Below, piece after piece: positions 29,178 to 44,490 of a stretch of 64,000 nt of DNA. How positions within the stretch are numbered: position 1 is the first letter of the stretch; every line of letters starts with the position of its first letter. The notes beneath the pieces were generated by a model. That model was not told where the DNA came from, made no database searches, and was given only the letters and a program-made list of their open reading frames with translations. The stretch is from Occallatibacter sp. Lineage in GTDB: Bacteria; Acidobacteriota; Terriglobia; Terriglobales; Acidobacteriaceae. The DNA lies in contig JARLFZ010000005.1 in NCBI GenBank assembly GCA_031296305.1, forward strand, positions 22,236-86,235, read 5' to 3'. The position numbers and the translations under genes are program-made.

Positions 29178-30602
29178 TCACGAGTGAGCAGAATGCAGCG
29201 CGTCGTGGGATTCAGCACGGAGAGCAAATTCACGGGCAGCAGCGAGAATGCCCGAAGCCCATTGCGGCGTGGCCGTGGCGTGAAGATGCGTGTATGCCGC
29301 GAAGACATTCTGCGTAACGAGGCCGTCGCGGCCCGCACCGCATCCATTGCCGCGGAGGACGGCGCAGGCGGAGGTTACGAATTCGGAACCGCTGACGATG
29401 CGCGAATAATGGAACTCGTGACCGCGCAGAACGGCGCCCTGCGGGAAAAATGGATTCAATGCATCGACACGCAATTCACTGTAGCCGTGACCTTGCGGCG
29501 TGGCAAAGGCTTCGACGTCAATGGGAAACACGTTGGCCATGGGATAGCGGGTGCCTTGCCAGGTAAGACTGCGCGCCAGAAGCATAAGGCCGCCACACTC
29601 GGCGTACACGGGATGGCCGGCGGCGCATGCATGGCGAAGCGACTCAAGAAAACTGGTATTGGCGGAGAGCGCACGAGCATGCGTCTCCGGGAATCCCCCT
29701 CCAATATAGAGAGCGTGCAGGCCGGTGGGGAGGGAAGTCGCATCGAGTGCTGAGATGGGCACCAACTCGGCGCCCGCACGCTCCAGTTCCTCAAGATTCT
29801 CCGGGTAGTAGAAAGTGAATGCCGAATCCCGAAGATATCCAATTCTGAGACCGTGCGCATCTGGTATAGGCGGGAGCGCTTCCGTGCACGTCGCTAGTGC
29901 AGGGGCACTGCGAGCGATGGTCAGCAGCGCATCGAGATCCACGCGATTCTCCATCCAGGCGAGAAGATTGCGCTCCACACTGTCCATGGTTTGGTGTTCG
30001 TCAGGAGGAACCAATCCGAGATGTCGTTCGGGAAGTGGATTCGCCTCAAGCCGGGGCAGCGAGCCGATCACCGGGATGGAGCAAACCGATTCGATCGCAT
30101 CACGGAGTACTTGCTCATGCCGCTGGCCGTTGACTTTATTCAGCACAACGCCTTGAATCGAAGCGCGAGCATCGAGTTTCTGGCAACCCAGGACTAGCGC
30201 AGCAGCCGTGCGTGTCATTTTGGCGGCGTCGAGCACCAGCACGATGGGCGCGTCAAGGGTTTCAGCGAGGTTTGCGCTCGAGTAGGTTCCTGCGGCGTCG
30301 AATCCATCAAAGAGTCCGCGGTTGCCCTCGATCACGTTGACGCCGTCGCAGGTACCGTGACGCACAAACGAGGCGCGTGCCGCCTCAGCGCCCATCAGGA
30401 ATGCATCGAGATTGCGAGCCGGATGGGCGGAGGCCCACGCAAGCCAAGCAGGGTCAATATAGTCCGGCCCTTTTTTGAAGGCGCGAACGTCGAGCCCCGC
30501 GCGGCGCAGCAGCAGCAAAATGCCCAGAGTGACGATGGTCTTGCCGGAGCCACCGGAGAGCCCAGCAACGAGCAGGCGCGGCATGGAAGGTTTGGCGTTC
30601 AC
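29178..30602 (-). CDS. dsrN: Cobyrinate a,c-diamide synthase (CobB/CbiA) family; probable siroheme amidase DsrN
   Basis: LLVAGLSGGSGKTIVTLGIL, FKKGPDYIDPAWLAWA, GLFDGFDAAGTYSSANLAETLDAPIVLVLDA, glutaminase YIGGGFPETHARAL...YAECGGLMLLA; embedded in dsr island. Confidence 0.82.
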   Translation of the reverse strand: MNAKPSMPRLLVAGLSGGSGKTIVTLGILLLLRRAGLDVRAFKKGPDYIDPAWLAWASAHPARNLDAFLMGAEAARASFVRHGTCDGVNVIEGNRGLFDGFDAAGTYSSANLAETLDAPIVLVLDAAKMTRTAAALVLGCQKLDARASIQGVVLNKVNGQRHEQVLRDAIESVCSIPVIGSLPRLEANPLPERHLGLVPPDEHQTMDSVERNLLAWMENRVDLDALLTIARSAPALATCTEALPPIPDAHGLRIGYLRDSAFTFYYPENLEELERAGAELVPISALDATSLPTGLHALYIGGGFPETHARALSANTSFLESLRHACAAGHPVYAECGGLMLLARSLTWQGTRYPMANVFPIDVEAFATPQGHGYSELRVDALNPFFPQGAVLRGHEFHYSRIVSGSEFVTSACAVLRGNGCGAGRDGLVTQNVFAAYTHLHATATPQWASGILAAAREFALRAESHDALHSAHS

Positions 30603-30625: not shown

Positions 30626-30880
30626 CTATTCCGTGCCTTCCTTGGGAGGAAGCTGGATGTATGAGCCTCCGAGATAGCTGTAAATGCAGCGTCCAGTGTC
30701 AATGAGAATGCGAATTGCTTTCTTGCAATCGTCCTTGCTGCAAGTAGCCTCGCCGTGGCGCGCGATCATCTCCTTGATGAGATCGCCCGCTTTCAAATTT
30801 TTCTTTCCGGCACATTCGGCCAACAGCTGGTACATCTCATCCGCCAAGGTTTCAATGGGAACCGCGGCCATATCTGTCAT
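30626..30880 (-). CDS. DsrD-like small winged-helix protein
   Basis: 84 aa; KKAIRILIDTGRCIYSYLGGSYIQL resembles the C-terminal wing of DsrD; located between dsrN and SUMT. Confidence 0.55.
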   Translation of the reverse strand: MTDMAAVPIETLADEMYQLLAECAGKKNLKAGDLIKEMIARHGEATCSKDDCKKAIRILIDTGRCIYSYLGGSYIQLPPKEGTE

Positions 30881-31710
30881 ACTTCTCCTTCTTTTTGAGG
30901 TGCATGCAAAGCCACCAGTTGTTGCAGGCGTTCGCGAAGGCGAACCACCTCGCCGACTACGAGCGTTGCCGGCGGCTCAATATTGGCGCGTCGCACCTCC
31001 GCGGCGATGTTTTCAAGAGTGTCCGCGACAACGCGCTCACTTTCGCAATAGGCCATCTGAATCATTGCCGCCGGCGTGGAGGGTGAGCGCCCCGCGACCA
31101 GCAAATTGCGAACAATCGCCTCAATATTGTGTACGCCCATGAGAAAGACCGCCGTGCCGATTCGCGCCACGGCCTCCCAGTCTACGCGATCCTCGCTGCC
31201 GTCTGCACTGTGCCCCGTCACAATGACGACCGAGGAGGACGACTCACGATGGGTGACGGCGATGCCGGCGCTGAGCGGAGCCGAGAGGCAGGATGAGACG
31301 CCGGGAATGACTTCGAAGGGGATTCCGTGCTCGGCTAAGTACTCCACCTCTTCTCCACCGCGCCCAAAGAGAAACGGGTCGCCGCCTTTGAGACGAACCA
31401 CCATCTTGCCCAGGCGCGCCTTTTCGACAAGAAGTGCGTGAATCTCGTCCTGGCGCGCGTGGTGGCCGGGTTCCTTGCCCATGTAGATCTTTTCCGCGGA
31501 GGGTCTGGCCAGAGCGAGGACGCCATCATGGATGAGGCGGTCGTAGACGAGGACGTCGGCGGCACGAATGCGCTCGACGGCGCGCAGAGTGAGGAGGCCG
31601 GGATCGCCCGGACCCGCGCCGACCAAAATCACTTTCCCAGGCTGCTCTTCGCGCGCGGTTACAGGAGGAGATTCCGGTTTGGTTCCCGACGATGGGTCTG
31701 CGAACGCCAT
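30877..31710 (-). CDS. cobA: Uroporphyrinogen-III C-methyltransferase (SUMT)
   Basis: GKVILVGAGPGDPGLLTLRAVERIRAADVLVYDRLI, VVRLKGGDPFLFGRGGEEVEYL, IPFEVIPGVSSCLSAPLSAGIAVTHR. Confidence 0.93.
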   Translation of the reverse strand: MAFADPSSGTKPESPPVTAREEQPGKVILVGAGPGDPGLLTLRAVERIRAADVLVYDRLIHDGVLALARPSAEKIYMGKEPGHHARQDEIHALLVEKARLGKMVVRLKGGDPFLFGRGGEEVEYLAEHGIPFEVIPGVSSCLSAPLSAGIAVTHRESSSSVVIVTGHSADGSEDRVDWEAVARIGTAVFLMGVHNIEAIVRNLLVAGRSPSTPAAMIQMAYCESERVVADTLENIAAEVRRANIEPPATLVVGEVVRLRERLQQLVALHAPQKEGEV

Positions 31711-31740: not shown

Positions 31741-32895
31741 CTAGCTTTCAACTTCCTCGCGTACCGAGAGCACGATCTTGTAAAACACCGTGATGAGAAA
31801 CGCACCGACGGACCAGATTCCTGCAACAATGGTCCACTCCGGCAGCGAAGGCGCATAATGCGCGATCGCACCCAGCGGCGACGGCACAAAGCCGCCCACG
31901 ATCAAGCCCAGCCCCTTCTCAAGCCAGAGCGAGGTGAACACAAGGATGCACGCGATGGGCAGTTGTGTGCGGCGCCAGGCAGGCGTGAATAGAATAACCA
32001 GCGCAGCAATCGCGAATATTGCGGAAACCCACATCCAGGGAGCGAGATTGTGCCCACCACCAAGCAGATAGAGATATTCAAAATGCACGGTGTGTTCCGG
32101 AATAGCCGCGTAAAACACCGTGAATACCTCGACTAACACGAAAAAGACATTGATCGTCATCGCGTAGGTCATGATGACGGCGAGCTTGCGAATGGCGTCT
32201 TTGCCTACGTCGTATGCGGTGAGCTTGCGCAGCGCAAGACAAAGCAGGATGAGCAATGCCGGACCAGAAGAGAATGCCGAGGCGAGAAAGCGCGGCGCAA
32301 GAATCGCTGTAAGCCAGAACGACCGGCCGGCAAGGCCGCTGTAGAGAAATGCGGTGACGGTATGGATGCTTATGGCCCAGGGGATGGAGAGAATTGCCAG
32401 TGGCTTGATCCATCGCGGCGCTGGCGTCTCTTCGCGTTCCGCGCGCAGCGTAACGAAGGCAACGATGGCGTTCAGCAGCAGGTAGCCGCTCAAAGAGACC
32501 ATGTCCCAGAACATGAGCGAGCGCGGCGAGGGGTAAAGAATGATATTGAGCACGCGCGAGGGCTGGCCGAGATCGACAAAGATAAAAAGGATGCACATGA
32601 TCACCGAGACGATGGCGAGAAACTCGCCAAGAATCGTGACGCGCGCGAATTGCTTTTCGCGATGCAGATAATAAGGCAGCACAACCATGACGGCCGATGC
32701 GGCGACGCCGACAAAGAAAGTGAATTGCGCGATGTAGAGTCCCCAGCTCACGTCACGGCTTAGGCCCGTGATGCCCAGGCCCTGGTTCAGTTGTCGCAAA
32801 TAAAAACAGAGGCCGGCAACGATGACGCATAGCAAACAGAGCAGCCACATCCAGTAGCGGCGGCTTCCTTTGAGCGCTTTGTCGAGCATCAACAT
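31741..32895 (-). CDS. dsrP: DsrP, NrfD-family membrane subunit
   Basis: Multi-TM protein MLMLDKALKGSRRYWMWLLCLLCVIVAGLCFYLRQLNQGLGITGLSRDVSWGLYIAQFTFFVGVAASAVMVVLPYY. Confidence 0.9.
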   Translation of the reverse strand: MLMLDKALKGSRRYWMWLLCLLCVIVAGLCFYLRQLNQGLGITGLSRDVSWGLYIAQFTFFVGVAASAVMVVLPYYLHREKQFARVTILGEFLAIVSVIMCILFIFVDLGQPSRVLNIILYPSPRSLMFWDMVSLSGYLLLNAIVAFVTLRAEREETPAPRWIKPLAILSIPWAISIHTVTAFLYSGLAGRSFWLTAILAPRFLASAFSSGPALLILLCLALRKLTAYDVGKDAIRKLAVIMTYAMTINVFFVLVEVFTVFYAAIPEHTVHFEYLYLLGGGHNLAPWMWVSAIFAIAALVILFTPAWRRTQLPIACILVFTSLWLEKGLGLIVGGFVPSPLGAIAHYAPSLPEWTIVAGIWSVGAFLITVFYKIVLSVREEVES

Positions 32896-32899
32896 GGCA

Positions 32900-33664
32900 T
32901 CAGACCAGGTAAAAAACCGACGGACCAGTTCCGAGTTCGGGTTCGCGCTGCACGGCAAAACGCTCGCGCAGTAGTTGACGCGGCTCCGACTCCGGGTCCG
33001 CAAGATTGCCGAAGGTGAAGACACGCTGGGGACAGGCATCGACGCAGGCCGGCTTGAGGCCGCGCGCGAGCCGCTCTTCGCAGAAGTTGCACTTTTCTAC
33101 CACGCCTTTGGTGCGCGTGGGGAAATCGGGGTTGATGCTCTCGATGCTGGGCCGCGGATCTTCAAAGTTGAAGCTGCGCGAGCCATAGGGGCAGGCGGCG
33201 ACACAATAGCGACAGCCGATGCAGCGATGCCAATCCATCATTACGATGCCGTCGTCGCGTTTCCATGTGGCTTGCGTGGGACAGACGCGCGTGCATGGCG
33301 GGTTGGCGCAGTGATTGCAAAGCAGCGGGACTTTCGTCTCTGTGACGGTTTGCGGGGCGAAGTCAGTTTGCGCGGAAGGAAAGACCGTGGCATCCGGCTC
33401 GGTCCAGATCCATTTCACTTCGTGCGCATGGTTGGCAATCTGCGGAATGTTGTGCGCGGCGTTGCAGGCATGGATGCAGGCGTTGCAGCCATCCTTTTCG
33501 CGGCACTTGCTGAGATCGATCACCATTCCCCAGCGCACAGGTTGCGTCGACGCGGCGCGTACGCTCGATGCAGGCTGGCTGACGGATTCCGCCGCTCGCT
33601 TGCATCCGGCAGCAAGCAGCGAAAGGCCGGAGATGCGCAGAAAATCTTTGCGCGTAATCTTCAT
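32900..33664 (-). CDS. dsrO: DsrO, periplasmic ferredoxin-like subunit
   Basis: MKITRKDFLRISGLSLLAAGC leader; multiple 4Fe-4S motifs (CREKDGCNACIHAC, CNHCANPPCTRVCP, CIGCRYCVAACPYG). Confidence 0.9.
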   Translation of the reverse strand: MKITRKDFLRISGLSLLAAGCKRAAESVSQPASSVRAASTQPVRWGMVIDLSKCREKDGCNACIHACNAAHNIPQIANHAHEVKWIWTEPDATVFPSAQTDFAPQTVTETKVPLLCNHCANPPCTRVCPTQATWKRDDGIVMMDWHRCIGCRYCVAACPYGSRSFNFEDPRPSIESINPDFPTRTKGVVEKCNFCEERLARGLKPACVDACPQRVFTFGNLADPESEPRQLLRERFAVQREPELGTGPSVFYLV

Positions 33665-34077
33665 GGCGTGCTCCGAGTTCTGGAGCCGGCGACAGTTTGC
33701 GGATCGTTGTGGCAGTTCCAGCAGTACGGATCGGAGACACCGGAATAGGCGTGGCAGCGGTCGCAGAATTGTTCCTTGTTGTGGCAACCGAGGCAGGTGC
33801 GCGTGAGGCTTTTCTCGTAGACCTTGCCATTGAAGGCAACAAAGCGACGGTCGCCATGGCGCACTACATCTTCTCGCCATTGGATCAGCATCTGCATGTG
33901 CGCGGCGCGCATGGTGCCAGCGGGCGCTACGCATTCCTTCTGATTCGCAGGTAGCTCGAGGTTGGGAGGTTTGCTCTTGTTCGATGCCTTCCCATTCGCG
34001 ACTGCATACCAGGCGGGACAGGTGAGCGCCGCAACGAAGAAGGCCAAACCGGCAAAGATCCACACACGATCACGCAT
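33661..34077 (-). CDS. dsrJ: DsrJ, triheme cytochrome c
   Basis: Signal anchor and three CxxCH motifs (CLGCH, CDRCH, CWNCH); ATGA overlap with dsrO. Confidence 0.92.
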   Translation of the reverse strand: MRDRVWIFAGLAFFVAALTCPAWYAVANGKASNKSKPPNLELPANQKECVAPAGTMRAAHMQMLIQWREDVVRHGDRRFVAFNGKVYEKSLTRTCLGCHNKEQFCDRCHAYSGVSDPYCWNCHNDPQTVAGSRTRSTP

Positions 34078-35704
34078 GGCCGGCCTCGTTCGCAGTGGTG
34101 GCCGCGTATGCCTCGGCTGGGAACGGTTCGCCGCGCAGATCGGCGACGCGTTCCTTTTCTCCGGTCATCACCAGCGCGTTGCCTACGAGTTCGTGCACGC
34201 CGGCGACTTCGACGCCCGGCACCCAATACTCAAGCAGCGTGGGCAGCGTGGCCTTGTCGATGGCGCAGATGCAAGTGAGCAGATTGACGCCGTGCTTTTG
34301 CTTCACGTATTTCACGGCGTTGGCGCGCGGAAAGCCGCCGCGCAGGCGCATTTCGAGGTTTTCGTCGGTGCCGAGGCCAGCGCCCGAGCCGCAGCAGAAG
34401 GTCTGCTCGCGGATGGTGTTTTCTGGCATCTCATGGAAATTACGGCAAACAGCCCTGAGAATGGATCGCGGCTCTTCCAGCAGGCCCATGGCCCGCGCCG
34501 GATTGCAGGAGTCGTGATAGGTTGCGATCCAGCGATCGTTGCGCCGCGGATCGAGCTTGAGTTTTCCGTGATGGATCAGGTCGGCGGTGAACTCGCAGAT
34601 GTGCACCATTTTTGTGGAGCGGGCATTCTCGAAGACTGTGCCGGTGAGGGGCGAGACGGGCACGCCGAGAAAATCGGCCGGGCCGTTCATCGTATCCATA
34701 TATTGGTGCAGCACGCGCCACATGTGACCGCACTCGCCGCCGAGAATCCATTTGACGCCGAGACGTTTGGCTTCCTCGTAAATCTTGGCGTTCAGGCGCT
34801 TCATCATTTCGTGCGAGGAGAAGAGCCCGAAGTTTCCGCCTTCCGAGGCGTAGGCGCTGACGGTGTAGTCGAGGCCGATTTCGCGAAAGAGCATCAGGTA
34901 GCCGAGCAGCGTGTAGTAGTGCGGCGTGCCGAAGTAGTCGGCCGAGGGCATGACGAAGAGCACTTCGGCGCCTTTGCGGTTGATGGGAACGTGGAAGTCG
35001 AGCCCGGTGATCTCCGCGGCCTCGTCGGCCGCAAAGTCGAGGCTGTCTTTGAATCCATGCGGCTGGATGCCGAGATGATTGCCGACGCGAAAGCAATTGG
35101 CGGCGGGCTCAAGCACCCAGTTGGTGTTGCAGCCGATGAGATTGAGCAACTCGCGGCCCATCATGGTGATCTCCGCGGTGTCGATGCCATAGGGGCAGAA
35201 GACAGAGCAGCGGCGGCACTCGGTGCACTGGTAGAAGTAGTAGAACCACTCCTTGATCACGTCTTCAGTGAGCTCGCGGCCACCGGCCAGCTTGCCAAAA
35301 ATGCGCCCGGTCAACGTGAAGTAGCGGCGGTAGATAGAACGCATCAGCTCCGCGCGTGCCACGGGCATGTTCTTGGGGTCGGAGGAGCCGAGATAGAAGT
35401 GGCATTTGTCGGCGCAGGCGCCGCAGCGTACGCAAATGTCCATGAAGAGGCGGAAGGAGCGGTATTTATCGAGGCGCTCTTTCATGCCGTCGAGGATAAT
35501 GCGTTTCCAATCCGGCGGAAGCTTCCAGTCTTTATCGAGCGGCTGCCAGGCGCGCGGATTGGGAAGGCCGAGAGCAGTGAGATTTTTAGGCGCGGCACTG
35601 TAGCAGATCGAGCCCTTGCGAAACTCGACATGCGAGTCGCGCCAGTCGCCATGCGGCGGCTTTAGCTCAATTTGTACGAGCGTTTCCGGCATCTTCGGTC
35701 TCAT
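34070..35704 (-). CDS. dsrK: DsrK, HdrD-like Fe-S protein
   Basis: CVRCGACADKCHFYLG, CTECRRCSVFCPYG, CCG-type motifs (HDSCNPARAMG, FCCGSGAG); start MRPKMPETL or MPETL. Confidence 0.92.
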   Translation of the reverse strand: MRPKMPETLVQIELKPPHGDWRDSHVEFRKGSICYSAAPKNLTALGLPNPRAWQPLDKDWKLPPDWKRIILDGMKERLDKYRSFRLFMDICVRCGACADKCHFYLGSSDPKNMPVARAELMRSIYRRYFTLTGRIFGKLAGGRELTEDVIKEWFYYFYQCTECRRCSVFCPYGIDTAEITMMGRELLNLIGCNTNWVLEPAANCFRVGNHLGIQPHGFKDSLDFAADEAAEITGLDFHVPINRKGAEVLFVMPSADYFGTPHYYTLLGYLMLFREIGLDYTVSAYASEGGNFGLFSSHEMMKRLNAKIYEEAKRLGVKWILGGECGHMWRVLHQYMDTMNGPADFLGVPVSPLTGTVFENARSTKMVHICEFTADLIHHGKLKLDPRRNDRWIATYHDSCNPARAMGLLEEPRSILRAVCRNFHEMPENTIREQTFCCGSGAGLGTDENLEMRLRGGFPRANAVKYVKQKHGVNLLTCICAIDKATLPTLLEYWVPGVEVAGVHELVGNALVMTGEKERVADLRGEPFPAEAYAATTANEAGHA

Positions 35705-36692
35705 TCTCGATTTCAAGCGGAATTCCCGCAGCCTGCATCTTGTCGCGGAATTCTTCTTCCCATTCCACATAAGCGTGGGTTTTTACGGGAGCGTTCCAAG
35801 GATTGATATGCCGCTGGCTACGACTGTTGTTGGCGAGGTTGCGGGTCGGGCTCAGGAACACGCCGCTCATGTGCATCAATTTGCTGAACGGGAGATATGC
35901 AGCGAGCGCGCAGACCAAGAGCAAATGGCAAAGAAACAGCGCGCTTAGCGCCTGCGAAGCGCCCGGCCGGAACGCGGCCAGGCCAAGTGCAAATTGCTTC
36001 ACGCTGAGTATGTCGACACGTGTGAAGTAGCGCATGAGAATGCCAGTGACGGCGATGGCCAGCAGCAGGAACAGCGCGAAGTAGTCAGAGAAAAGCGAGA
36101 GGTAGCGCAGGGCGGGATCGCGAAAACGCCGGAACAACAGAAATGTCATCGCGCTGACCAGAATCACGTCAGAAAAATAAAGCGGCGGCACGCCAATCTG
36201 GAAGTAGCCGTCGAGACGCTCGAGAGCGTTGACGAATGCCGGAACGGGCTCGAGGAACAGTCGCAGATGGCGGAGCATGATCAACAGCAACGTCCAATGA
36301 AAGGCCAAAGAACAAAGCCAGAGGCTCGCACTCTCACCCAGAATCAGGCGTCCGCCCGAAAGGCGCGCGCGATTGTTGCGAAAGAGCGAGCGGAAGAGCA
36401 GAATTTCGGCGGCCATACGAGACACGACACCCCATCGCGTAGAAGGATTGTCGATTTTCGCGAAACGGATCCAGACAAGCGATTTCTGCTGACCGCAGGT
36501 GACGGGAATATGGAAGGGAACTGGCACGAATGCCCAGCGGGCGACGCGCCAGCAGAAGCCAATGAGAAGCGCAGCGAAAGCTGCGTAGGGAACGAACGTG
36601 GCAAGAACCATGCGTGCCGGTGCGCCTTGCCCGCACGCAAAGCCGGCCAAAACCAGGGCCAGCACCGCGAGCAGTGAATAGAGCGCATTCAT
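35667..36692 (-). CDS. dsrM: DsrM, heme b membrane subunit (NarI-like)
   Basis: Multi-TM; FLSPTRNLANNSRSQRHINPWNAPVKTHAYVEWEEEFRDKM C-terminus; overlaps dsrK. Confidence 0.9.
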   Translation of the reverse strand: MNALYSLLAVLALVLAGFACGQGAPARMVLATFVPYAAFAALLIGFCWRVARWAFVPVPFHIPVTCGQQKSLVWIRFAKIDNPSTRWGVVSRMAAEILLFRSLFRNNRARLSGGRLILGESASLWLCSLAFHWTLLLIMLRHLRLFLEPVPAFVNALERLDGYFQIGVPPLYFSDVILVSAMTFLLFRRFRDPALRYLSLFSDYFALFLLLAIAVTGILMRYFTRVDILSVKQFALGLAAFRPGASQALSALFLCHLLLVCALAAYLPFSKLMHMSGVFLSPTRNLANNSRSQRHINPWNAPVKTHAYVEWEEEFRDKMQAAGIPLEIENETEDAGNARTN

Positions 36693-36703
36693 GATTGGTC
36701 CCG

Positions 36704-37150
36704 TCACTTTGCCGCGCACTGCATGCGCAAGCGCAACTCTTTTTCGCGCAACCCTGCAATCTGATCGCGGCAGGCCATGTACTGGTCGAAGGCCATCAAA
36801 GCCATTTCGTCGATCCGAATTTCAAGAGCCTGCGGAGGAGCGCCTATGACTTCAACCACCACGTCGCGAAGGTCGAAGATAAAGCGCAGCGCGTCGGAGG
36901 GACGAAAATCCTGCACGGCGCGAAGGCGGACTAAAGCATCGAGTGCGGTCGCAATAGCGCTTTCTTCCATTTCGCCGAGCAACTCGTGGGCCAGCGTGGT
37001 CAAGCTCTGCTTGATGGCATGGCCCGCGGGATTGCGGAAGGGATCCGTCTCGCCGCACAGGAGCGCATGCGCCTCCGCTGGATAGGAAGCGAGAGTGCGC
37101 TCGATCCAACGCTCCGCGACAATTTCTGCGATGGCTCCGCTCACGCTCAT
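36704..37150 (-). CDS. DsrT-like protein (RsbRD N-terminal domain-like)
   Basis: 148 aa helical protein between dsrC and dsrM, the position of dsrT in dsr operons; IRIDEMALMAFDQYMACRDQIAGLREKEL. Confidence 0.6.
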   Translation of the reverse strand: MSVSGAIAEIVAERWIERTLASYPAEAHALLCGETDPFRNPAGHAIKQSLTTLAHELLGEMEESAIATALDALVRLRAVQDFRPSDALRFIFDLRDVVVEVIGAPPQALEIRIDEMALMAFDQYMACRDQIAGLREKELRLRMQCAAK

Positions 37151-37156
37151 GGCAAC

Positions 37157-37474
37157 CTACACGCAGCCTGTGGGCTTGGGAAGTCCGGCGAGCTTGCAGG
37201 CGCCCTTGGCGGGGCCGGATGGAAAGAGCTGGTAAATCTCACTCAGCTTGTATCCGGTCTCTTTGCAGACCTTGCGGACCATGGGCGCGATACCAAACTG
37301 AAGGTAGTAGTTGCGAATGTAGTTGATCACCTTCCAATGGCCATCAGTCAACGCATCGATCGACTCGGATTTGGCAAAGTCCTTTGCCACGTCTTCGGTC
37401 CAGAGATCGGGCTCCTGGAGGAAGCCATCCTCGTCGACATCGTATTTCTTGCCTTCCACTTCAAACGTCGGCAC
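37157..37474 (-). CDS. dsrC: DsrC sulfur carrier protein
   Basis: 105 aa; ends GACKLAGLPKPTGCV, with both conserved C-terminal cysteines. Confidence 0.96.
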   Translation of the reverse strand: MPTFEVEGKKYDVDEDGFLQEPDLWTEDVAKDFAKSESIDALTDGHWKVINYIRNYYLQFGIAPMVRKVCKETGYKLSEIYQLFPSGPAKGACKLAGLPKPTGCV

Positions 37475-37488
37475 AATTCACCTCACAA

Positions 37489-38685
37489 TTAGTTCATTGC
37501 TATGTATCCGCACGGACACGACTCCGCACATTTTCCGCAACCGTTACAGAGATCGAGCTTGATTTTGTAGTGCTCGCCTTTGGGCAGCTTGACGAAGCAG
37601 TTTTTGCTGCAGTACATCCAGCAGGTCTCGCAGTCCATGCACATGCCGCATGACATGCAGCGCGCGGCCTCGGCAAGCGCCTCGGCCTCGGTCATCGCAG
37701 CGCCGCCATCGACGCGCTGTGCGGCTGCCGGATGCCAATCGAGCTTCAAACTTTCAGAACGAATGACGGCAGGTGCGGCAGTCTGCGCTGCACTGCGGCC
37801 TTCAAGGTGCGCAGAGATGGCTTCGGCGACTGCGCGTCCCTGGGCAATTGCGACGCTCACGGTGTTGAGCACACGCGGGACAGCTTCGGTAGCTTCTTCG
37901 GCCGGAATGTCCGGTGGCTCCGCGGGCAACTCGCCGATAAGCGCTGCGACGCCATTGCTGCCGGCGCGCAACTCCAATTGCGCAGCCTTTTGCAGCCCCA
38001 TGGCGAAGAATACGACCTGGTAGTTTCGTTGCAACTCTTCTAGCGAAAGATCCTGGCCGACAACGCAGCCGGTGCGCAACTCGATGCCGAGACCAAGGAT
38101 GTTTGTAATTTCAGCATCGAGGATATCGGCGGGAATAAGCGAGCGAGGGATGCGAGAACGCATCATGCCGCCGGGCCGGGGTGCGGCGTCGATGACGGTG
38201 ACCGTGTAGCCCTTGCGGGCAAGATGCCAGGCGGCAGAGAGCCCGGCAGGACCTGCGCCGACTACGGCGATGCGCGGCGCATCGGCGCGGGGTGGAGTGA
38301 TTGTCTCGGCGCGCAATCCTTGTGCGATGGCAAAATCACCGACGAACTGCTCCAGTTTGTTCACGGCAAGCGGGCCGTCTTTGGCTTTGCGATTGCAATT
38401 CAGCTCGCAAGGATGCTGGCAGACGCGGCCGCAGATAGCAGGGAAGGGATTGTGCTCCAGAATCTTGCGCCAGGCGAGCTCAATAGCTTGCTCAGGCGTG
38501 CGGCCATAGGCTTTATGCTGGGCCAGCGCCACGAGCCACCCGCGCACATCGGTTCCACTGGGGCAGCTATGGATGCAGGGAGCCGTTTTCGCGATGTAGG
38601 CGGGGCGATGGGTGCTGACGCCAGCGTCAGCGGCGCTATGCTTGATCACCGGCTTCTTCACTTCTTTGAATAGCCCCATCAGCAA
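37489..38685 (-). CDS. dsrL: DsrL-like FAD/Fe-S oxidoreductase, shortened (second nucleotide-binding domain apparently missing)
   Basis: CGRVCQHPCELNCNRK, RIAVVGAGPAGLSAAWHLARKGYTVTVIDA; C-terminal ferredoxin CNGCGKCAESCPCG; no GGGNxAxD-like NAD(P) motif. Confidence 0.8.
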   Translation of the reverse strand: MLMGLFKEVKKPVIKHSAADAGVSTHRPAYIAKTAPCIHSCPSGTDVRGWLVALAQHKAYGRTPEQAIELAWRKILEHNPFPAICGRVCQHPCELNCNRKAKDGPLAVNKLEQFVGDFAIAQGLRAETITPPRADAPRIAVVGAGPAGLSAAWHLARKGYTVTVIDAAPRPGGMMRSRIPRSLIPADILDAEITNILGLGIELRTGCVVGQDLSLEELQRNYQVVFFAMGLQKAAQLELRAGSNGVAALIGELPAEPPDIPAEEATEAVPRVLNTVSVAIAQGRAVAEAISAHLEGRSAAQTAAPAVIRSESLKLDWHPAAAQRVDGGAAMTEAEALAEAARCMSCGMCMDCETCWMYCSKNCFVKLPKGEHYKIKLDLCNGCGKCAESCPCGYIAMN

Positions 38686-38713: not shown

Positions 38714-39802
38714 TTAATAGCGAATGTGTGTCGAGCGCGCGAATGTCATGCCGGCGTTCTTGAAATCATCGATGTGATAGCGCGTGAACTCGAAGCCGGT
38801 GAGCTCGAAGAACCGCGGCCAGCCAATGCGATCGATCCATTCGCCCACGCGCTCGTACTTACGGGCTTCGCCGCGATAGACATCGACAATCTTCGTTACT
38901 GCTTCGATAACTTCAGGCCAGCGCGGCGGATTGTTGGGCAGGAACGGGATCGAAAGACGTGAGAAGCGTGGAGCGCTGCGCGCATTGCTGACCTTGCCGC
39001 CGACCCAGATGGAGAGCCCGTCGTTTTCCGCATCAGCCATGCGCATGGCCGGACAAACGCTGAAGCAGTTGCCGCAGTACATGCAGTCTTCTTCCAGGAC
39101 TTCGACGGATTGCTTGCCTCCCACACCGGGTACCGGACGAATTGCGCCTGTGGGGCACGAGGCAACCAGCGTGGGCACCTCGCAGGCCTTCGTGAGCAAA
39201 TCGTTTTGGACCTTGGGCGGGCGGCGATGCACGCCGAGGATGGCAATGTCGGAACAGTGCACTGCGCCGCACATGTTCAGGCAGCAGGCCACGGCGATGC
39301 GCAGCTTGGCGGGCAGATCTTCGTGCGTGAAGTGATCGATGAGCGCATCCATCATGCTCTTGACCAGCCCCGAAGCGTCAGTAGCCGCGGCGTGGCAATG
39401 CACCCAGCCCTGCGTGTGCACAATGTTGCTGATGGCGTTGTTGGTGCCGCCAACGGGAATGCCCAGCAATGCGAGCTCCTGCTTCAGCGGTTCGATCTGC
39501 GCCGGATCGGTGAGGAGAAACTCAACATTGTTGCGGCTGGTAAAGCGCAGATAGCCGCCGCAATATTTGTCGGCGAGATCGGCATACTTGCGCAGGGTTT
39601 GAATGCTGAGCAAGCGCGGCGTGCCCCCACGCACGGTGTAGAGGCGGTCGCCCGATTCGGCAACATGGCACAGAACGCCGGGCGCCAGGGTCTCGTGATA
39701 TTTCCACGTGCCGTAGTTTTTGAGCACGATGGGCGGCAGATATTTGTCGTAGCGTGGAGGCCCGACGTCGGTAAGCCGTGGTTGCAGCGGTGTGGTCGTC
39801 AT
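38714..39802 (-). CDS. dsrB: Dissimilatory sulfite reductase beta subunit
   Basis: [72 protein letters not shown]. Confidence 0.96.
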
Positions 39803-41016
39803 GCCTCATCCTCCTTCGCGGGTTGGTAGTAGATGTAAGGGTTGTCGCGCGGCGCGGAAACCATCTCCGGCGCGGGATCGAGCCCGATGCCATCGAGAAA
39901 TGCGGCAAGCCCGACGCGCTGAATCAATTCGCCGATGCGCTCGCGATTGGTACCGTACTCATCCCAGAAATCCCAGATGCGCTGTATGAGCTCCTTAAGT
40001 GTGTCGAGCAATTCATCCGCTGCGACAAAGGGAATCAAGACGGAGGAGAGCAGTGCGCCCTGCAGAATGGGCGCTTTGGCGCCGATCAGGATCACTGCGC
40101 CTTTTTCCACGCCGGGCCGCAGAGCCTTGGGCATGGCGTTGATGCAGTGCATGCAGCGCACACAGTCGCGGTTTTTGATGTTGAGCTCTTTGCCATTCCA
40201 ATCCATGCACCTGGTGGGGCAATTGGCGCAGATGTCTTTTTGAATGTCGACTCCGGCGGTGGCGTAGTTCGCAACTTCTGCCTGGTCGATGCGAATATCG
40301 TCCTTCCACGTGCCGATGACGGAAAGATCGGCCCGGGCAATGGCGGCGACGCAATCGTTGGGACAGGCCGAGCATTTGATCTTGAATTTGTAAGGCAGCG
40401 CAGGCCGATGCAGCTCGTCCTGATAGGCCATGGTCAGGTCGTAGCAAAGCTTCATGGCGTCGAAGCAGGCCCATTCGCAACGGGCCATGCCCACGCAGCA
40501 GGAAGGCGTGCGCACCGCCGAGCCCGAGCCCCCAAGATCGAATCCGGCGTGGGTCAGTTCCTGGAAGGTCGCTTCGAGATGATCGGTCGTTGTGCCGAGC
40601 AGGATCATGTCCCCAGTTGAGCCGTGCATGTTGGTCAGGCCCGAGCCGTGACGCTCCCAGATGTCGCTGATGGTGCGCAGAGCCTCACTTGTGTAGAACC
40701 ATCCGGCCGGCTGATTCACCCGCAGAGTGTGAAAGTGCGCAACCTTGGGAAACTGCTCGCCCACATCGCTGTAACGGCCGATGACTCCGCCACCATAACC
40801 CAGCACGCCCACGAGGCCGCCGTGTTTCCAATGGCTCACCTTGTCTTCGTAGGAAAGCTCGAGCTGGCCGAGCAGATCCTCTGCGCCCCCGGTAACTCCC
40901 TGGGCCGACTTGATCTCTGTGACGAAGCTGGGCCACGGGCCTTTTTCCAGTTCGTCGAGCAGCTTGGTTTCGGGTTTGCCGTTGGCGGGTTTTACGCCCT
41001 CGTCTGCATCTGCCAT
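39799..41016 (-). CDS. dsrA: Dissimilatory sulfite reductase alpha subunit
   Basis: [86 protein letters not shown], ferredoxin [15 protein letters not shown]; start MADADEG. Confidence 0.96.
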
Positions 41017-41170
41017 GGCCTTGCTCCTTTCGCCACAAAACGCCGGTTTCTTCAGCCGGCGATCCATCGAACACGAGGAACTGCTCGGTCAGAAAAGCGG
41101 GGCCGGAGAGCGGCGAAGCGGCCCGTTTGCGCATCGGTCAAACCGCACAGTTCCCCGACCATGAAGAAAA

Positions 41171-41212: not shown

Positions 41213-41923
41213 GTGATGAGTGTCACAACCAGCGGCGATCAGGTGTGGGAATTTGTATCAAGTTGCATTGGATTGGCGGTGAAATTGGCATCCACAAGCT
41301 GCAAGGCCGCATTTTTCCCGATACTGGTGAACCTGGCCGGGCGGAAGTGCGTCGTTGTGGGAGCCGGAACGGTTGCCGCCGCCAAGATTGAGGGTCTGTT
41401 GCTCTGCGACGCCGATGTGGTGGTCGTCAGCCCGCATGCGGTGCAGGCGATCCAACGTCTAGCGCGGGCTGGGAGGCTGGCCTGGCGGCGAAGGGCGTTC
41501 TCGCGAAGAGATGTGCAGGGGAAGTTTTTGGCCATCGCCGCCACGAGCTCGGGCAAGGTGAATGAGGCGGTGTTTCGCGCCTGCGCGGCGCGGGGCGTTT
41601 TGTGCAACTCCGTGGACGATCCGGAGCATTGCGACTTTATTTATCCCGCGGTGGCGCGGCGGGGGCCGTTGCAGATTGCGATTTCAACCGGCGGCCGCAG
41701 TCCCGCGCTTGCTGCCAGGCTGCGGCGGGAGCTGGAGCGGCAGTTTGGTCCGGAATGGGGGGCGTGGGTAGAGCATCTCGGCAGGCACCGCGATGAGTTG
41801 CTCAAGGGAAAGATGCCCGAGAAGAGCCGCCGGCGCCGCCTGCAACAAATGGCAACGCCGAAAGCGTTTCGTGATTTTCTGCGCGATGGAGGCCAGACGC
41901 CGGCACGGAAGAATCGCGGTTGA
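41213..41923 (+). CDS. Siroheme synthase N-terminal domain protein / precorrin-2 dehydrogenase (SirC/CysG-N)
   Basis: FFPILVNLAGRKCVVVGAGTVAAAKIEGLLLCDADVVVVSP, CNSVDDPEHCDFIYPAVARRGPLQIAISTGGRSPALAARLRRELE; exact start uncertain. Confidence 0.87.
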   Translation: MMSVTTSGDQVWEFVSSCIGLAVKLASTSCKAAFFPILVNLAGRKCVVVGAGTVAAAKIEGLLLCDADVVVVSPHAVQAIQRLARAGRLAWRRRAFSRRDVQGKFLAIAATSSGKVNEAVFRACAARGVLCNSVDDPEHCDFIYPAVARRGPLQIAISTGGRSPALAARLRRELERQFGPEWGAWVEHLGRHRDELLKGKMPEKSRRRRLQQMATPKAFRDFLRDGGQTPARKNRG

Positions 41924-41932
41924 AGTTGTTGC

Positions 41933-43540
41933 TCAGCGCCATTCCCAATCGATGAACCCCGGCTTGACGTCGGTCATCGCGTTCACAACCAGCTCGACAA
42001 GCCCGCCATAGAAAATGCGATTCTTCTGCCAAAGATCGTAGTACGTGATCATGTCGCGGAACTGCCCTTTGCAGTTGCTGCATGGGGCGCACAGATATTT
42101 TGGCGACTCCGGGCCGGGGCATTCGGCGAATGCGTTCAGAATCTGCTCGAGCTTTTTGCGTCCGGAGACGTGGAATCGCCAGTCGGGAAAGTTGTTGCCG
42201 CTCATGATGGCGAAGCCGCTGCCGCCGCCGCAGCAATAGTTGTTCACGCCATGCGGCTCCATCTCGCGAAATTGCGGGCAAAGAGCGCGAAGGATCTCCC
42301 GTTGCGGCTCGACCACGCCCATCAAGCGCACCATATTGCAGGGATCGTGGAGAGTGACCGGAAAATCGTTGCGCGTGGGATCGAATTTGATTTTGCCGCT
42401 GAGAACGATGTCGCGCAGCAATGGCAAATAGCTTTCCCGCGGAATGTTGAGGTCACCGGTTAGAATTCGGTCGGCAATCACGCACAGTGCTTTGTGCGCG
42501 TGTCCGCATTCGCCAATCACGATGCGCTTTACACCCAGCTTTTTCGCGGCCTCCATGTGCTTCAGCGCCACGCGAGCGAATTGGGCGTCGTCGTACCACA
42601 GGCCGTAGTTAATGGCGTCGTAGGCCGCCAACTCGGAGGACATCGTCCAGTTGACGCCTGCCATGGTGAGAATGAGCGCAAATGCGCCGGGGTTCTCAGG
42701 CCAGGCCATGATCTCGCCGGCATTGTGGATGAGAAGAACGTCTGCGCCCTCGATGTCCCACGGGGTGTGGACTTCGATGCCGGTGCGTTCGCTTATGTCT
42801 TCGTCGACGAAAGCGACATTGTCTTTCACGATCTCGGCGGTCATGCCCGTCGACGAGCCGGCTTCGAGCTGCAGCATGGAGCCATTCTCGTGGATCTCGC
42901 GCGGCACAATGCCCATCTCCTGGCTGAACAGCTTGCGCAATTCGCGCGCCACCAGGCCGTTATCGCAGCCGATCGGGCAGGATTGCGCGCAGCGCCGGCA
43001 AAGATTGCAGCGGTAAGAGAGTTCGATCAGCCGTGCAACGAGGGGCCAGTTCAGATGGATGTCTCCATGCTGCCAGGCTGAGAGAAGGCCGCCGCGTTTT
43101 ACGTACTTGAAGTAGAGGCGGCGCAGAATTTCGGCGCGGAAGGTCGGGCGGTAGAGTTCGTTGCGGCCGCTGGCCTCGAAGATGTGACAGGATTCCGCGC
43201 AGGTCTGACAGCCGGTGCAGTGCTCCATGGTGAGCAGCAGCGGCTCGAAGAAGGTCCAGTTGTTTTCCTTGTCGAAGAGTTTGTCGAGGCCGGAAAGAAA
43301 GCGGGCGACAAGTTGCTCCTCTTCATCCGATGACTTCGGTTTGGGAATGTTGACGGCGCAGGTATCGTCGAGGCCGCATTCATAGCGGCTCTGGCATTGC
43401 TCTGATAGCGCAGCCCAAGCGTGGTCCTTTTCCTCGCTTTCGAGCGGCGCGGGCAACGGCATCAGTTCTTTGTTCTCGAGGTGGATCAGGGCCTCGCTGC
43501 CGGGCCGCGAAATATCGCGGAGGTCGATTTTGCCGCTCAT
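41933..43540 (-). CDS. DsrK paralogue (HdrD-like heterodisulfide reductase-type Fe-S protein)
   Basis: CTGCQTCAESCHIFEASGRNELYRPTFRAEILRR, CNLCRRCAQSCPIGCDN, HDPCNMVRLMG, NYCCGGGSGFA. Confidence 0.87.
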   Translation of the reverse strand: MSGKIDLRDISRPGSEALIHLENKELMPLPAPLESEEKDHAWAALSEQCQSRYECGLDDTCAVNIPKPKSSDEEEQLVARFLSGLDKLFDKENNWTFFEPLLLTMEHCTGCQTCAESCHIFEASGRNELYRPTFRAEILRRLYFKYVKRGGLLSAWQHGDIHLNWPLVARLIELSYRCNLCRRCAQSCPIGCDNGLVARELRKLFSQEMGIVPREIHENGSMLQLEAGSSTGMTAEIVKDNVAFVDEDISERTGIEVHTPWDIEGADVLLIHNAGEIMAWPENPGAFALILTMAGVNWTMSSELAAYDAINYGLWYDDAQFARVALKHMEAAKKLGVKRIVIGECGHAHKALCVIADRILTGDLNIPRESYLPLLRDIVLSGKIKFDPTRNDFPVTLHDPCNMVRLMGVVEPQREILRALCPQFREMEPHGVNNYCCGGGSGFAIMSGNNFPDWRFHVSGRKKLEQILNAFAECPGPESPKYLCAPCSNCKGQFRDMITYYDLWQKNRIFYGGLVELVVNAMTDVKPGFIDWEWR

Positions 43541-44490
43541 TTTTGCGCCTCCCGGGTGGTCTGCGCCTCCCTTGTGGGGTTGGTGGTGGCAATCTCAGCC
43601 CAGGTGCGCTGGCCGTCAGCGCCCACGTGCGGCGCAGACCATGTGGGTTTGTAGCCCAGCGATGCGGCCACTTTGTCTTCGAGAACGCTTCCGCGCTCGT
43701 TGCGCCGGTCGTCCCACCGCACCGCATGCCAGGTAAAGTATTTGGCAATGAAATGCGCCATGTGGGTGAACGGAATATATGCCAGGAGTGTGGAGGCCAG
43801 AATCAGGCCTGCGCCGAATGCGGACCCCATGGTAATGCTGCGATCGAAGTGAACGGCGCCGCGCGCGAATTCACCGAGTGTCGCCGTGCCGGGCGCGCGC
43901 AACATGTATCCGCCGATTAGAAGCGTGAATGCCACAATGAAGAACAGCAGGTTAAAGATATCTCCGGCGTGCGTGGAATTCTTCAGGGCCGGATCGGCGG
44001 TGCGGCGCATCAGGAGCCAGAAGGCACCGGCGACAATGAGAGTGGCTGCGATAGCTGCGGAGAACATGGCGATCGGAGCCAGCACGTGAACGAGTCCAGT
44101 GATTTGCGACGTGGCGGACAACTGGCCGCACGCCAGCGCCAGCGCAGCGCAGGCAACCGCGGCGATGGCGATATAAAGTCCGAAATGAAAGAGAAAAGAT
44201 GGAAGCCACAAGCGGCGGTTGTATTCGCGCAGGCTCTTGAGGAAGAGAATCTCCTCGATCATTACGCGCCATTCGCCGCGCCGGTTGGTCACTTGCGGCT
44301 GACGCCACCATTCCTGAGTTTCGAAATACGATCCGCCATACGCCGCGCGATAGGGATGCTCATGGGGCAGTGGATAGATTTCCCAGCGCAGGTGCAGTGG
44401 CGTCCGGGCATAAACGAGAATGCGCCTTAGACAGCCAGCCAGAAAAATGAACAGGCCGAAATAAATCGCGAGATAAACCGCGGCGGTCAA
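43537..44490 (-). CDS. DsrM paralogue (NarI-like membrane cytochrome b)
   Basis: Multi-TM protein, ATGA overlap with downstream DsrK paralogue; IPFTHMAHFIAKYFTWHAVRWDD. Confidence 0.82.
   Translation of the reverse strand: MTAAVYLAIYFGLFIFLAGCLRRILVYARTPLHLRWEIYPLPHEHPYRAAYGGSYFETQEWWRQPQVTNRRGEWRVMIEEILFLKSLREYNRRLWLPSFLFHFGLYIAIAAVACAALALACGQLSATSQITGLVHVLAPIAMFSAAIAATLIVAGAFWLLMRRTADPALKNSTHAGDIFNLLFFIVAFTLLIGGYMLRAPGTATLGEFARGAVHFDRSITMGSAFGAGLILASTLLAYIPFTHMAHFIAKYFTWHAVRWDDRRNERGSVLEDKVAASLGYKPTWSAPHVGADGQRTWAEIATTNPTREAQTTREAQK

Follow-up and report, generated by a model that had tools for sequence, protein, structure and literature searches.

Our study shows that the dsrL gene located on the reverse strand at positions 37489-38685 of the window (the whole 64,000-nucleotide stretch of DNA analyzed here) encodes a trimmed form of DsrL, which is a real and conserved variant of this protein and apparently an undescribed one; among the freely accessible main texts searched, none describes a DsrL devoid of this NAD(P)H-binding part. 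We propose, tentatively and with slightly less than even confidence in the proposal as a whole, that this DsrL makes no use of NAD(P)H and would relay to reductive DsrAB the electrons that a protein donor supplies, its trimmed core having spread between operons by recombination.

The dsrL open reading frame (ORF) is open throughout and encodes 398 amino acids (aa) from a TTG codon. The ATG at position 38679 (N-terminus MGLFKEVKKP) is the likely start, since nearly all relatives begin there, resulting in a 396-aa protein (37489-38679, reverse strand), and the gene is intact in the window between dsrB and dsrC. A preliminary description of this DNA had claimed a 398-aa ORF with N-terminal cysteines, a GAGPAG motif, and a C-terminal ferredoxin but no GGGNxAxD motif, and the ORF and the alignment bear out all of these elements. 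From the N-terminus onward, all on the reverse strand, the protein comprises (i) a double [4Fe-4S] domain (aa 20-120; 38320-38622), matched by Fer4_20 in 15/15 trimmed members; (ii) the opening half of the FAD domain (aa 134-230; 37990-38280), with the GAGPAG, GGMMR, and AMGLQK motifs and an FAD-type Rossmann match in all members; (iii) a junction (aa 231-271; 37867-37989); (iv) the closing helix of the FAD domain, N272-xxx-AIAQGR (aa 272-292; 37804-37866), in which N272, I278, Q280, G281, and A285 are invariant; and (v) a two-cluster ferredoxin domain (aa 333-396; 37492-37683). Cluster-ligand positions were transferred by alignment from the DsrL-2 ligand list in PMC7596348. In the 15 trimmed sequences compared, the N-terminal ligands S22, R25, C35, C39, C87, C91, C95, and E110 are invariant, as are C341, C344, C347, C350, C353, C357, C361, C378, C381, C384, and C388 of the ferredoxin domain. 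The best model for the window protein is NF009410/PRK12771 (319 bits, under the curated cut-off of 516), and its Pyr_redox_2 match covers only the first 108 of 291 profile positions.

Alignment to 28 full-length acidobacterial homologues revealed that the junction stands in for ~156 missing residues, namely, the entire NADP(H) domain, including GGGDTAID and YRR, plus the GGD motif. GGD is the second FAD-contact motif of such flavoprotein folds. It occupies residues 408-410 of the full-length DsrL and is found in 28/28 full-length relatives versus 0/15 trimmed members. The deletion thus extends past the NAD(P)H domain into the FAD domain, a loss that the preliminary description had overlooked. 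The junction is 38-40 aa long in every trimmed member, with G249, E254, P256, E262, and R269 in common. The RLP loop and the GIGA motif are also altered, and residues Q88, K98, A166, M173, A226, Q230, E254, and N272 are newly fixed around the missing domain.

Sequence scans retrieved 18 distinct trimmed proteins, all from Acidobacteriota and from Terriglobales where placed, versus 35 distinct full-length homologues of ~552 aa. The trimmed set includes the peat metagenome-assembled genome (MAG) SbA5 (L039) and several independently assembled MAGs. An assembly error as the cause of the gap is excluded, since the same gap and the same 38-40 aa junction occur in 18 distinct proteins from independent genomes. 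The GGGDxAxD motif is present in 0/18 trimmed versus 32/35 full-length proteins and YRR in 0/18 versus 31/35; GGGDxAxD, YRR, and GGD are each found in 31-34 of the 35 full-length homologues and in none of the 18 trimmed ones. Within the window's family, trimmed DsrLs occur in genera g1, g4, g6, and g32 and full-length DsrLs in g5, g17, g20, and g263; full-length DsrLs also occur in Bryobacterales and in other parts of the phylum. In a survey of 396 genomes of the phylum, the matches listed included no trimmed DsrL outside the window's group. The point named against natural trimming in the preliminary description, full-length orthologues in close relatives, holds in part: other members of the family have full-length DsrLs, but trimmed ones are widespread as well.

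The sequences further indicate that the trimmed dsrL is under purifying selection. The dN/dS ratios were 0.08-0.24 for trimmed pairs versus 0.09-0.14 for full-length pairs, with several dS values near saturation, and no stop codon interrupts any trimmed member. In most pairs, the lowest pN/pS within the trimmed DsrL was that of the ferredoxin domain. Cluster ligands stay invariant among trimmed proteins diverged to ~55% identity, and the FAD part varies far more than these ligands. A naturally trimmed form, as first suggested from the window sequence, is strongly supported by the 18 proteins, this selection, a single origin in the gene tree, and an intact operon context.

The window genome is an Acidobacteriota MAG of 4.1 Mb (84% complete), whose closest named relative at the dsr locus is SbA5. 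Its dsr operon lies on the reverse strand and starts with dsrM2, encoding a DsrM paralogue (43537-44490; weak NF038037 match, Nitrate_red_gam), and dsrK2, encoding a DsrK paralogue and candidate electron donor (41933-43540; NF045796, 323 bits, below the cut-off of 400). These are followed by dsrA (39799-41067; TIGR02064, 577 bits), dsrB (38714-39802; TIGR02066, 506 bits), dsrL, and dsrC (37157-37474; PF04358 and TIGR03342), the product of which carries two C-terminal cysteines (..GACKLAGLPKPTGCV). A gene encoding a 148-aa RsbRD_N-domain protein (36704-37150; PF14361) separates dsrC from dsrM (35667-36719; NF038037, 448 bits), after which come dsrK (34070-35770; NF045796, 724 bits), dsrJ (33661-34077; three CxxCH haem motifs in the translation), dsrO (32900-33664; NF045797, 297 bits), and the dsrP ORF (31741-33039; NF045798, 459 bits, with the family match starting at residue 51). 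The RsbRD_N gene was present in all loci scored and occupies this place between dsrC and dsrM in almost all of the acidobacterial dsr operons that were examined; its product evolves fast (~40% identity). Beyond dsrP, on the same strand, are a tetrapyrrole methylase gene (30877-31710), an 84-aa ORF (30626-30880) without Pfam or NCBIfam match, and a CobB-type dsrN (29178-30602). Together with a dsrV-like gene of the CysG N-terminal type on the forward strand (41213-41923), the methylase gene and dsrN place sirohaem/corrin-type genes at the operon flanks. A homologue of the 84-aa ORF lies directly 3' of dsrB in several relatives, and the ORF may therefore be a divergent dsrD. The dsrA-B-L-C order is the same in the window and its relatives, and the gene order around dsrL is that of full-length operons. 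No fixed difference between the trimmed and full-length groups was found in DsrA, B, C, M, K, O, or P; hence, the partners of DsrL appear unchanged.

How the trimmed form arose is suggested by the conflict between dsrL and its neighbors. In the dsrL tree, computed with the deleted columns omitted, trimmed genes form a single clade with 100/100 support. In contrast, seven concatenated operon proteins (A, B, C, M, K, O, and P) distribute trimmed operons over four lineages, with full-length operons branching among them, and they reject one trimmed clade (AU p=1.5e-46); the genes upstream and the genes downstream, taken separately, also split trimmed operons this way. Since the operon genes give four lineages and dsrL one clade, the trimmed core would have moved between otherwise similar operons, and the simplest reading of these trees is apparently one deletion followed by movement of the core among operons by recombination. 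Parallel deletions in the four lineages, combined with convergent substitutions, would also account for the operon tree and for the ends of DsrL (residues 1-60 and 300-396), which do not reject the operon groupings. Nevertheless, whole dsrL rejects these groupings, the FAD part unites the trimmed members in one clade at 100 with the middle of the gene trimmed-like, and all trimmed members have identical breakpoints and an alignable 38-40 aa junction. The sharing of this junction makes parallel deletion improbable. In L046 (DBS2-1.bin60), the clearest example of this conflict, eight neighboring operon proteins are nearest to full-length L074 and DsrL is nearest to the trimmed clade; this dsrL looks mosaic along its length. 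L046 could possibly be a chimeric contig, which would leave the other lineages unexplained.

As judged from motifs, the NADPH input appears to have been impaired along two separate routes in the window's family. The full-length DsrLs of SbA1, fen_85, bog_205, and bog_443 (L067, L069, L071, and L072) keep the NADPH domain and GGD, but their YRR loop is deleted and GGGD is changed to GAGG or GAGL. G640 (L139), which belongs to the same clade as these four, retains YRR and GGGD. As related full-length DsrLs thus lost the YRR loop independently, the NADPH input may be dispensable in this group.

Structure prediction suggested that the retained domains of the trimmed DsrL fold compactly. The AlphaFold2 model, built with 30 related sequences, had a mean pLDDT of 80 and a pTM of 0.82; pLDDT was mostly >90 on the FAD half-domain and the closing helix (~92 for helix 268-292), whereas the N-terminus and parts of the ferredoxin had low values. 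In Foldseek searches, the trimmed model aligned to NfnB-type chains over ~200 residues at 2.3-2.9 A and a full-length relative over 430-485 residues. FAD binding is nevertheless doubtful, since GGD is gone too: the FAD domain assumed to be retained in the preliminary description is present as its GAGPAG half, and the cofactor is less secure than was thought. The protein might even be a pure iron-sulfur wire without FAD, in which half a Rossmann fold merely spaces the N- and C-terminal cluster pairs. The absence of GGD from every trimmed member, the changed RLP loop and GIGA motif, and a FAD part much more variable than the invariant Fe-S ligands would fit such a wire. However, GAGPAG, GGMMR, the AMG motif, and the closing AIAQG helix are kept with several invariant positions where a mere spacer would be expected to drift more, and we consider this wire unlikely.

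On these grounds, we propose that a single ancestral in-frame deletion would have taken the NADPH domain together with the GGD FAD motif. The N-terminal [4Fe-4S] pair and the two-cluster ferredoxin at the C-terminus would have been left, as would the first half of the FAD domain and its closing helix. The product most likely still passes electrons to the adjacent reductive-type DsrAB through an iron-sulfur, and possibly also flavin, relay, and these electrons would arrive from a protein donor that docks either at the end carrying the ferredoxin or where the flavin face is exposed. Candidate donors could be the quinol-linked DsrMK2 paralogue, NfnAB, or a soluble ferredoxin that receives its electrons from 2-oxoacid oxidoreductases. 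As judged from its domains, the trimmed protein would be unable to act unaided as an NADPH-dependent donor of the DsrL-2 kind, and since the NADPH domain is lost and the rest well preserved, the bacteria that carry it probably supply their sulfite reductase otherwise. No stand-alone NADPH domain that could act in trans was found in the 11 trimmed genomes searched. Because the trimmed DsrL alone could not use NADPH, no such domain was found, and the partners appear unchanged, we favor a DsrL-derived relay without pyridine-nucleotide input, fed by a protein donor and delivering to DsrAB, a reading in which our confidence is about even. The reduction of DsrAB by the trimmed DsrL, the direction of electron transfer, the type of donor, and the presence or absence of FAD are all inferred.

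A protein donor had been suggested from the outset and is plausible as the best explanation, but the genomes single out none. Every trimmed genome checked encodes DsrK2, but so do most of the full-length ones, and DsrK2 was therefore dropped as a diagnostic partner; 2-oxoacid oxidoreductases, the ferredoxin-linked oxidoreductases at issue, are present in trimmed and full-length genomes alike and were dropped as a distinguishing donor. Among the genomes compared, no donor gene separated trimmed from full-length. Loss of sulfate activation was likewise rejected as the cause of trimming, as seven trimmed genomes have aprA above the cut-off and searches of seven others found none. In the latter (G000, G167, G122, G012, G022, G170, and G554, of which G000 is only 84% complete), a dsr operon was found but no aprA, suggesting sulfite rather than sulfate respiration. 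NADPH could also be delivered in trans by a separate protein (NfnB, GltD, or a larger HdrA-like fusion) docking on the trimmed DsrL: the window genome encodes NfnAB, and several trimmed genomes encode NfnB/GltD-type proteins that are 45-52% identical to the lost domain. These closest candidates, however, are complete enzymes themselves and are absent from G133, G012, G022, and G170, where the best match has an E value of only ~1e-11 to 1e-13, so that we think delivery in trans rather improbable. Still less probable would be a noncatalytic role, whether in scaffolding or assembling DsrABC or as a decaying gene. Although the sole well-characterized catalytic input of DsrL is gone, the ligand invariance, the low dN/dS, and the stop-free frame of every member noted above are at odds with such a role.

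The electron source of reductive DsrAB is an open point: PMC7596348 describes DsrL-2 as its NADPH-dependent donor, which is how DsrL-2 has been read so far, and the review PMC10591310 names DsrL or an as yet unknown oxidoreductase as the source and reports that its DsrL profile misses some DsrLs described earlier. With the trimmed clade, known from a group of Acidobacteria of soil and peat, nature provides a separation-of-function test in this respect, because DsrL is kept and yet NADPH would be unusable in the known way. The clade also cautions against concluding NAD(P)H coupling from the mere presence of dsrL in a MAG. If the protein-donor relay is true, electrons would enter dissimilatory sulfite reductase by a distinct type of route, and if the core did move by recombination, short and long DsrLs would be interchangeable beside the same DsrABC.

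Several known systems resemble the trimmed DsrL in part. The electron-entry modules of NfnB, GltD, and dihydropyrimidine dehydrogenase share its N-terminal cluster domain and FAD half-domain but keep the NADPH domain, and in them the DsrL-type C-terminal ferredoxin is missing or replaced by other partners; at the locus, both the NADPH domain and an adjacent GltD or NfnB partner subunit (GltB or NfnA) are absent. In size, the preliminary description was right that the protein is short, but the fitting comparator is the ~552-aa DsrL of other Acidobacteriota, than which it is ~156 residues shorter, and not the ~650-aa Allochromatium protein. SbA1, fen_85, bog_205, and bog_443 belong to the same GTDB-type family where placed and have an apparently impaired NADPH input in a DsrL of full length, whereas SbA5 (PMC6018796; "Ca. 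Sulfotelmatomonas gaucii" in PMC8528874) has the same trimmed form, 79% identical to that of the window. PMC6018796 reports dsrL beside dsrC in seven peat MAGs, with proteins that are shorter yet have the same functional domains, and expression of the sulfur genes of each MAG; the statement on domains, as worded there, does not fit the SbA5 sequence. Like the DsrL-2 of Desulfurella amilsii and "Ca. Sulfopaludibacter" SbA3 (PMC7596348), the trimmed protein is encoded after dsrAB, adjoins dsrC, and has the N-terminal ligands including Ser and Arg, the FAD Rossmann start, and the ferredoxin cysteines at its C-terminus. Unlike DsrL-2, it has neither the NADP(H) domain with GGGDxAxD and YRR nor the GGD of a complete FAD site, and it scores under the NF009410 cut-off. 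As the features that define DsrL as an NAD(P)H oxidoreductase are thus missing, we class it as DsrL-derived rather than as a DsrL-2.
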